Shown here: positions 3,542 through 6,063 of the stretch, piece after piece
Position numbering within the stretch: position 1 is the first letter of the stretch
Layout of the letters: every line of letters begins with the position of its first letter
Assembly (NCBI GenBank): GCA_015489175.1
Contig: WGAI01000020.1
Span: forward strand, 1 to 58,655
Origin: Caldifarciminota bacterium
GTDB taxonomy: Bacteria; Hydrothermota; Hydrothermia; B15-G9
DNA length: 58,655 bases
Direction: 5' to 3'
Notes under the pieces: generated by a model
The model's database searches: none
Seen by the model: only the letters and a program-made list of their open reading frames with translations
What the model was told of the DNA's origin: nothing
Translations under genes and position numbers: made by a program

Positions 3542-5107
3542 ATGAAAAAGAAACTACTTCTGCATATCTGTTGCGCTCCGGACGCCACTTATGGAATCGA
3601 ATATTTCTCAAAGGAGTTCGATGTCACGGTATTTTTTTACAATCCGAACATCCATCCGGAGGCGGAATACAAACTGAGGCTCATCGAGCTCAAGCGTGTT
3701 GCGAGAAGGTTCGGTGTTCCGATGATCGAAGGCGATTACAACCCTGACGCATGGTTTGAGGCCGTCAAAGGTCTTGAAAACGAGCCTGAGGGCGGGAAGC
3801 GATGCCCTGTATGCTTCAGAATGAGGCTTGAAGAGACTGCAAAGGTGGCCCATAAGCTTGGATTTGACGCCATCTCGACTGTGCTCACCATTTCCCCGAA
3901 GAAGGATTCCGAACTTGTCAACAGGATTGGGCGAGCCGCAGCGCTCAGGTATGGCCTGGAATGGATCGACGCAAACCTCAAGAAAGGCGGCGGCTTCAAG
4001 CGAAGCCTCGAACTCTCATCTCTTTTTGAACTGTATCGGCAGGAATATTGCGGATGCGTGTTCAGCCTGCGCGAGGCCGAGCACATCAGGCGCCTGAAGA
4101 CAATCGAAAGGATTGAGAGGGCGGAATTGGATGGCGACATGATACTGCCGAATTCGAGGTTCCCGGGCACATCCGCGGAGACGTTATTTCGTAAAGAGAT
4201 ACGGGATCGGCTTGAGGAACACGGGAGCTATAACCTAAAGGAGTTTGAGTTCCGCCTCATGGGATGGCGTCCTCTGCTCGCAAGGGTTTCCGTCGCAAAA
4301 ACCGGGCCTGAGTTCACGGCTCTACCGTGGGTTTATTCGGCTTCCGCTTCGGGACGCGTTAGGGGACTCGTCAACGATGTCAAAGACATAAAGGTAGAAG
4401 GCATCAGGTTCAAAAAGCTGAAACTGAGCAAAGGCGGTATTGAGCTGATGGCACGCATCGATGGGCCACCTATCCCGCTTGTCATTGACGAGTTCCCTGC
4501 ACTGAAACCGGTCATATCCGTTGACAGGGAAGTTCTCAACCATCTGGATAAAAAGTTAGATGTCCAGCTTATTGTGGAGTTTAACGACAGGGCAAGAAGC
4601 GGGATTTTACTGGCGTGGCAGGGAAAACCCACGCTCGCCGTGACGGCCCCATTGGATTCGATCTACAATTCCCCTGAAGGCAGCCGCATGGCGTCGGCCA
4701 TCAAGTTGCTGAAGCTGGCCGAAGGAGGGGTCGAGGATGTGGTTTTCGCTTTTCTCGGAGCAGAGCTGATGCATGGGATTGGGTTCAAAAAGTTCATCGA
4801 GGTAGCCTCCGAGATGTTCCCTCAACTTAAGGAAATTATTAGGCTTGGGCCAATTGGACTTGGGGACCGGATAATCCTTTATTACGACTCAGGTTTTGAG
4901 GAGCTGGATGACGCTTTTGGCGATGCGCCGTTCCCCGTCATGAGAAAATCCGACATTAGGGATATCTATCCTTACCATGTGGCTATTCTGAAGGCCGAAG
5001 GCAATCCACTTTACCACACGGTTAACGACCAGCTCAGTCGAGTAAACGAAAAGCTGGCCAATTCCATCACCGAGGCCGTCGAAAAATACATCGAAGGCCA
5101 CCATTAG
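3542..5107 (+). CDS. queH: Epoxyqueuosine reductase QueH fused to degenerate M28-like peptidase domain
   Basis: A 521-residue protein, about 300 longer than ordinary QueH. Residues 1-185 are QueH (former DUF208), which reduces epoxyqueuosine to queuosine in tRNA. The metal-cluster cysteines are all present: HICCAP (C10, C11), CPVC (C88, C91) and YCGC (C170, C172). Residues about 355-515 resemble an M28 aminopeptidase core: TLAVTAPLDSIYNSPEGS where M28 has AHxDS plus GAxDNxSG, then FAFLGAELMHGIGF where M28 has the EE motif, and YHTVNDQLSRV near the end, where M28 has the last His. The first His and the second Asp ligands are missing, so peptidase activity is unlikely. The middle (190-355) is unrecognised. 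No convincing ribosome-binding site precedes the ATG, and a TAATAT box ends 9 bases upstream, so the mRNA may be leaderless. QueH is confident; the C-terminal assignment is tentative. Confidence 0.8.
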   Translation: MKKKLLLHICCAPDATYGIEYFSKEFDVTVFFYNPNIHPEAEYKLRLIELKRVARRFGVPMIEGDYNPDAWFEAVKGLENEPEGGKRCPVCFRMRLEETAKVAHKLGFDAISTVLTISPKKDSELVNRIGRAAALRYGLEWIDANLKKGGGFKRSLELSSLFELYRQEYCGCVFSLREAEHIRRLKTIERIERAELDGDMILPNSRFPGTSAETLFRKEIRDRLEEHGSYNLKEFEFRLMGWRPLLARVSVAKTGPEFTALPWVYSASASGRVRGLVNDVKDIKVEGIRFKKLKLSKGGIELMARIDGPPIPLVIDEFPALKPVISVDREVLNHLDKKLDVQLIVEFNDRARSGILLAWQGKPTLAVTAPLDSIYNSPEGSRMASAIKLLKLAEGGVEDVVFAFLGAELMHGIGFKKFIEVASEMFPQLKEIIRLGPIGLGDRIILYYDSGFEELDDAFGDAPFPVMRKSDIRDIYPYHVAILKAEGNPLYHTVNDQLSRVNEKLANSITEAVEKYIEGHH

Positions 5108-5337: not shown

Positions 5338-6063
5338 GTGATAAGCAGTAAGCTCATACGAAAAATCTCGGATCTTGATCCGAAGATACGGGAAGTTCTC
5401 CTCGACCTGATTGATGAAGTCGAGGAGATGGTCGGGGAAACTGTAAAGAGAGATGATTTTTTAAAGTTTGCTCAGCAGACCAACGAGAATTTCAACAGGG
5501 TGTGGGCAGCCATAAATGAACTTGCTGAGGCGCAGAAGAAAACGGAGGAGAGGTTGAACAAACTTGCTCAGCGTGTTGACCAGCTCACTCAGCGTGTTGA
5601 CCAGCTCGCTGAGGCGCAGATAAGGACCGAAGAGGAAGTTCGGAAACTCGCCGAGAGGATGTCATTCGTCGAGGAGCGGCTTGAGGGTCTCTCCAACTCA
5701 GTTGGATATGGACTTGAAAACGAGACCTACAAATATCTGCCCGGTATTTTGAAGCGTGATTTCAACATCGAGGTGGATGGTAAATTAAGGCGGCGATATC
5801 TGGATGTCGGGAGCAAGAGAATCCAGATAAACATATTTGGTTATGGACGAAAGGGCGACGAGAGTTTAATGATCGTTGGTGAATGCAAGGTCAGGATGTC
5901 CAATAAAGAACTGGACACATTCCTTAAAAGGATCAAGAAGATAGAGGCACAGGAAGGAACAAAGGTCTTCCCTATAGTCGTTGCGCACGATTTCACACCT
6001 GAGATGGAGGAGCGGCTGAAAAAGCTCGGAATTACATACTACTGGTCGTTTGAGCTTGAATGA
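5338..6063 (+). CDS. Coiled-coil protein with C-terminal PD-(D/E)XK nuclease-like domain (DUF3782 type)
   Basis: A 241-residue protein. Residues 40-115 form a strong heptad coiled coil containing direct repeats (LAQRVDQLTQRVDQLAEAQ). The C-terminal part (about 125-241) fits the nuclease-fold proteins often annotated DUF3782: ENETYKYLPGIL, then RIQINIFGYGRKG, then LMIVGECKVRMS, which supplies the E-x-K of the fold. The Asp expected before it (usually in an xIDIFG-like strand) is Asn here (QINIFG), so catalysis is uncertain. The GTG start has GAGGTG 5 bases upstream. These proteins are common in thermophiles and candidate phyla, and their role is unknown. It stands alone with gaps of about 200 bases on both sides. 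Confidence 0.7.
   Translation: MISSKLIRKISDLDPKIREVLLDLIDEVEEMVGETVKRDDFLKFAQQTNENFNRVWAAINELAEAQKKTEERLNKLAQRVDQLTQRVDQLAEAQIRTEEEVRKLAERMSFVEERLEGLSNSVGYGLENETYKYLPGILKRDFNIEVDGKLRRRYLDVGSKRIQINIFGYGRKGDESLMIVGECKVRMSNKELDTFLKRIKKIEAQEGTKVFPIVVAHDFTPEMEERLKKLGITYYWSFELE

Follow-up and report, generated by a model that had tools for sequence, protein, structure and literature searches.

How should a single reading frame be understood in which a tRNA-modifying enzyme is followed by what resembles a peptidase without its metal site? The frame in question belongs to a WOR-3 metagenome-assembled genome (G000; 2.06 Mb, 96% complete) and lies near one end of the window, by which we mean the whole stretch of 58,655 nucleotides that was analysed. 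The initial annotation had described it as QueH joined to a degenerate M28-like domain, and this description is confirmed by profile searches, alignment, fold comparison, and relatives. The fusion is a new domain architecture of a known enzyme, both domains being well known separately, and is laid out as follows.

3542-5107, + strand: single open reading frame of 521 amino acids, fused QueH and degenerate M28 peptidase domain; the same frame is present in four related genomes (G001-G004).
3554-4075, + strand: QueH (epoxyqueuosine reductase) domain, residues 5-178; Pfam PF02677, alignment with 7LC5, and 7LC5 and 7LC7 as top Foldseek matches.
4076-4153, + strand: variable helical linker, residues 179-204; alignment and model.
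4154-5104, + strand: degenerate M28 metallopeptidase domain, residues 205-521; profile searches, Pfam, Foldseek, and alignment.
4259-4576, + strand: PA-like insert within the M28 domain (residues ~240-345, limits approximate); alignment with a PA-bearing M28 protein (L065) and Foldseek matches to BSAP, 2ek8, transferrin receptor, and GCPII.

QueH converts epoxyqueuosine-34 in tRNA to queuosine. The PF02677 match over residues 5-178 (E 3.4e-66, 223 bits) spans profile positions 1-175 of 175, and this half can be aligned end to end with the T. maritima QueH 7LC5 (E 2e-38), with C10, C11, D14, C88, C91, C170, and C172 kept. All six metal-site cysteines that the initial annotation had expected of a complete QueH are therefore aligned to those of 7LC5, together with Asp14 (Asp13 in T. 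maritima). The linker behind this half is poorly conserved, only 2 of the 19 columns at residues 186-204 being invariant. Across the phylum, the N-terminal motif of QueH occurs in two forms, HICCAPC (loci such as L006, L008, and L011) and HICCAPD (such as L013, L032, L042, and the window). It is the Asp form that is found in the fused proteins and in the T. maritima enzyme, for which the structure of an Asp13 mutant has been solved.

The genomes that carry the fusion show the setting of queuosine synthesis by QueH, in which QueA and Tgt are present and QueG is absent. QueA is found in G000, G001, G002, and G004, and Tgt in G001-G004. Tgt was not found in the incomplete G000, in which only 77 of 3000 bases of the G001 Tgt region are matched, suggesting that the G000 gene probably lies in an assembly gap. 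Neither QueG nor a second QueH was found in any of the five genomes, and together with the presence of QueA and Tgt this suggests that the fused QueH is probably the working epoxyqueuosine reductase. In the sister family f3, no QueH was found and QueG is present in three of the four genomes (G005, G007, and G009). In a single order, the last reaction of queuosine synthesis thus falls to QueG in one family and to the fused QueH in the others, which is a clean non-orthologous replacement.

The in-depth search covered one phylum only, with 147 genomes, 10 of which are of the same order. Full-length copies of the fusion, which the initial annotation had proposed to seek in related genomes, are present in five genomes from three genera of one order, showing 87% (G001), 59% (G002), 58% (G003), and 43% (G004) identity to the copy of G000, and no stop or frameshift was found in any of the five. 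Its presence in five genomes rules out an assembly or annotation error. The initial annotation had also considered that relatives might carry the two parts as separate genes; no C-terminal M28-like part outside the five fusions was found in the 147 genomes of the phylum, including the 10 of the order. A search of the genome contigs returned only the near-identical sister. A QueH match is present in 65 of the 147 genomes, mostly in open frames of ~175-205 amino acids. The five fused QueH domains group in a single clade (support 100/99) when 31 such domains are placed in a tree, and their branching, G004(G003(G002(G000,G001))), is the one expected if all derive from one fusion event. No report of a QueH domain fusion, or of WOR-3 with queuosine, was found in the literature searched, which was mostly without subscription papers and is weak evidence in this respect.

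The 330 residues behind QueH provide a lesson for annotation, since they are left unnamed by a sequence search with a single genome and are resolved through homologues. Residues 190-521 of the window copy alone show no match in Pfam or NCBIfam. The G003 copy alone exceeds the Pfam M28 cut-off (PF04389; 22.9 versus 21.3 bits), and a profile of the five C-terminal domains searched against all PDB sequences returns M28 aminopeptidases as its top three matches (2ek8, E 5e-4; PaAP, E 3e-3), with no significant match beyond M28 enzymes. Comparison of the fusion domains with five WOR-3 M28 sequences by hhalign gives an E value of 1e-5 with a probability of only 81%, probably because both alignments are shallow. 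The lid region also gave weak PDB-sequence matches, to ribosomal eS4 and OmpR (E 0.05-1.6), which were rejected as chance because neither is supported among the Foldseek matches listed.

Structural models were also compared. The full-length AlphaFold model, built from the five fusion proteins only, has a low pLDDT of 62, and its Foldseek matches are QueH structures, followed by M28 peptidases (3k9t, E 2e-9; LapB, 2e-6; LapA, 1e-5). A domain-only model, for which three WOR-3 M28 sequences were added to the alignment (pLDDT 74, pTM 0.71), is matched across the whole domain by PA-bearing M28 enzymes (2ek8, E 6e-13; BSAP, TM 0.67) and then by transferrin receptor and GCPII. The latter result depends on the added M28 sequences, whereas the full-length model, with no M28 sequences in its alignment, provides an independent match. 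A 29-sequence full-length alignment put an M28-only row onto QueH and was excluded from modelling. Collectively, the PDB profile matches, the Pfam match of G003, and the Foldseek results rule out a C-terminal part unrelated to M28, the doubt for which the initial annotation had recommended a fold comparison. By profiles and models, the C-terminal part comprises an entire M28 metallopeptidase domain that has degenerated and that contains a short PA-like insert. Since the domain-only model matches PA-bearing M28 enzymes over its full extent, the M28 region is placed from about residue 205 onwards, with the insert included. The M28 resemblance originally noticed at residues 355-515 is upheld, but its limits are not, because the region runs from ~205 to 521 and only the core had been recognised.

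The positions of the zinc ligands were read from an alignment that includes M28 sequences with intact ligands, and the residues are given in the order G000, G001, G002, G003, G004.

4649-4651, + strand: Pro370, at the position of the first zinc ligand (His of HxD); P/P/P/P/A.
4685-4687, + strand: Arg382, at the position of the bridging Asp (DN); R/R/R/R/E.
4766-4768, + strand: Leu409, at the position of the Glu ligand (second E of EE); L/L/V/E/S.
4847-4849, + strand: Gly436, at the position of the Asp ligand (N-x-D); G/G/V/N/R.
5015-5017, + strand: His492, the last His ligand (HTxxD), kept; H/H/N/H/R.

Three of the ligands are lost in all five homologues, a fourth is lost in four, and the fifth is kept in three, with at most two in any one copy. 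None of the copies has the five co-catalytic ligands H, D, E, D, H of an active M28 metallopeptidase, and the early impression that most zinc ligands are lost is borne out across the five homologues. As aligned, these residues would not make a dinuclear zinc centre possible in the usual way. The loss of this site suggests that a protein-cutting fold has been reused as a non-cutting attachment. In addition, Asp372 (of HxD), the general-base Glu408, and Asp496 (of HTxxD), which are D184, E220, and D308 of alignment A3 and lie within 4655-5029 of the window, are invariant in the five fusions and in three aligned M28 sequences with intact ligands. The retention of Glu408 could be explained by structure or by the remaining pocket.

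Purifying selection acts on the C-terminal part, though less strongly than on QueH. Between G000 and G001, the only pair used because the others are saturated at synonymous sites, the Nei-Gojobori dN/dS is 0.19 over the whole C-terminal part (bootstrap 0.12-0.26), about 2.7 times the 0.07 of QueH; within the C-terminal part it is 0.12 in the PA-like portion and 0.24 in the M28 core. The YN00 estimates rise to about 0.28 (C-terminal part) and 0.44 (core) and are also below 1. Invariant columns number 110 of 185 in QueH, 30 of 136 in the helix and PA-like part, and 20 of 181 in the former catalytic core, which is the least conserved. The net charge of the C-terminal domain in the five homologues is -6, -3, -6, +1, and -2 (pI 5.4-8.1), whereas QueH itself has pI values of 8.2-9.3 and is thus basic.

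The fusion gene is solitary, with gaps of 135 bases upstream and 230 downstream. Its neighbours, as named by reading their open frames, differ between lineages: G000 and G001 have LolA-like and coiled-coil genes, G002 has ribosome recycling factor and UppS, G003 has a CoA-ligase-like gene, and G004 has a Nif3-like gene. The gene context therefore suggests no partner. The downstream gene of the window (5338-6063, + strand) has in-frame repeats, QRVDQL and EAQKKTEERL, before a conserved C-terminal part, and their copy number differs, giving 241 amino acids in G000 and 276 in G001.

These data can be read in several ways. The main rival to a functional module is a tolerated passenger, in which the loss of a stop codon created the fusion with an M28 gene, the catalytic activity of the M28 part then decayed, and the domain persists through folding constraints alone, with no function other than doing QueH no harm. 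The faster evolution of the C-terminal part is consistent with this, as is the near-complete loss of ligands, which differs by lineage (L/L/V/E/S and G/G/V/N/R). However, 330 residues have been retained in frame and at full length across genera at 43-59% identity, and the dN/dS of about 0.19 has an interval below 0.26, so that we consider a passenger unlikely. It is also rather improbable, and somewhat more so, that the M28-like domain serves in tRNA docking and so helps QueH to reach the anticodon of its substrate tRNA. QueH does act on tRNA, the fusion is fixed, and conservation is higher in the PA-like part than in the core, but four of the five homologues carry a net negative charge on this domain next to a basic QueH half, which makes a simple, charge-driven tRNA-binding role less favoured. 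Moreover, a single domain of ~180 amino acids is the usual form of QueH in the same phylum, indicating that the reaction can proceed without an extra domain.

Two further readings have very little probability. The invariance of Asp372, Glu408, and Asp496 could point to a different activity kept by the domain, either metal-independent or with a single metal; the first-shell ligands are nevertheless replaced by Pro, Arg, Gly, and Leu, the retained acids may be structural, and a metal site is unlikely with Pro and Arg in the pocket. Slimmer still is the chance that the frame yields two proteins, a free pseudo-peptidase also being made by internal initiation, for instance at Met200, just before the M28-like part. 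This Met or a nearby one is present at the domain border in four of the five homologues, but G003 has no Met there and no clear ribosome-binding site was seen for the candidate start.

We favour, with a probability of about 0.55, an active QueH to which the pseudo-peptidase, joined once, is attached as a module for docking or oligomerisation and not for catalysis. The joining of QueH with an M28 aminopeptidase that had a PA domain would have taken place in an ancestor shared by part of a WOR-3 order. Speaking for this reading are the complete QueH with its metal ligands, the assignment to M28 by three independent routes, the loss of ligands in all five copies, the single clade of fused QueH parts, the intact frames, the lack of another epoxyqueuosine reductase in the five genomes, and a dN/dS well below 1. 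The QueH half would reduce oQ in tRNA, and the M28 half, presumably unable to hydrolyse peptides, could hold a partner protein or stabilise a QueH dimer. The better conservation of the helix and PA-like part than of the former active-site core was noted in connection with this module; the faster evolution of the C-terminal part compared to QueH, the least conserved core, and the absence of a partner suggested by the neighbours count against it. A more far-reaching proposal, somewhat doubtful at present, is that the pseudo-M28 domain may now be an essential, non-catalytic part of the tRNA-modifying enzyme, such as a docking site tying the last queuosine step to another cellular protein. If the domain has a role, an otherwise small QueH could be regulated or tethered via a borrowed fold.

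A second QueH fusion is seen in another WOR-3 family, f27, in which QueH is joined to a uracil-DNA glycosylase (UDG) superfamily domain in six genomes (G068-G071, G073, and G075; L032:1483-2643, L040:871-2037, L052:1480-2643, and also L047, L048, and L051). The three tested match Pfam UDG at E 4e-29 to 6e-30, and the domain is family-4/UdgX-like, below NCBIfam cut-offs. These fusions have motif-like GQAPG and HPSG stretches and adjoin a purA-like gene, and their six QueH parts form one clade (100/99), separate from the M28 fusions. No relevant report of QueH with UDG was found in the literature searched, mostly without subscription papers, which is weak evidence. Since this fusion occurs in a separate family, QueH may have gained several different C-terminal domains in the phylum, of which the M28 domain would be one.

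Compared to known systems, the QueH half shares with T. maritima QueH (PDB 7LC5) the whole family length, the six cysteines, and the N-terminal Asp at 39% identity in the Foldseek alignment, whereas the fused protein adds the 330-residue C-terminal domain. Other QueH proteins of the phylum have ~175-205 amino acids, except for the QueH-UDG fusion. The PA-bearing M28 aminopeptidases, BSAP/YwaD of B. subtilis (6HC6), the Aneurinibacillus aminopeptidase (2EK8), and PaAP of P. aeruginosa (8AC7), share with the C-terminal domain the predicted fold and the order of N-terminal helix, PA-like insert, and M28 core (Foldseek E 1e-11 to 6e-13, TM 0.54-0.67), but the fused domain is without the co-catalytic zinc site and sits behind QueH. 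No signal peptide is apparent in the fused protein, which is therefore probably cytosolic. Among WOR-3 M28 proteins the closest sequence found is L065 of G003, a 415-amino-acid M28 peptidase from the same WOR-3 family, which is colinear over the whole domain at 22% identity; it stands alone and has the intact ligands H, D, EE, D, H, in contrast to the fused domain. The significance of the fusion lies in the fixed joining of a tRNA-modification enzyme to a dead peptidase, which would place a pseudo-M28 protein in the bacterial cytosol, and the closest parallel to our knowledge is the extracellular, eukaryotic transferrin receptor. Transferrin receptor 1 is related to M28 enzymes but has no peptidase activity and serves as a binding and dimer protein. 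Its PA and M28 fold is matched by the domain model (Foldseek E 5e-10), it has an extra helical domain, and its likeness to the working of the fused domain is one of analogy only, at the level of fold and not of sequence. The odds are roughly even that the M28 half of the fusion has a docking or oligomerisation role of the kind served by pseudo-M28 proteins.
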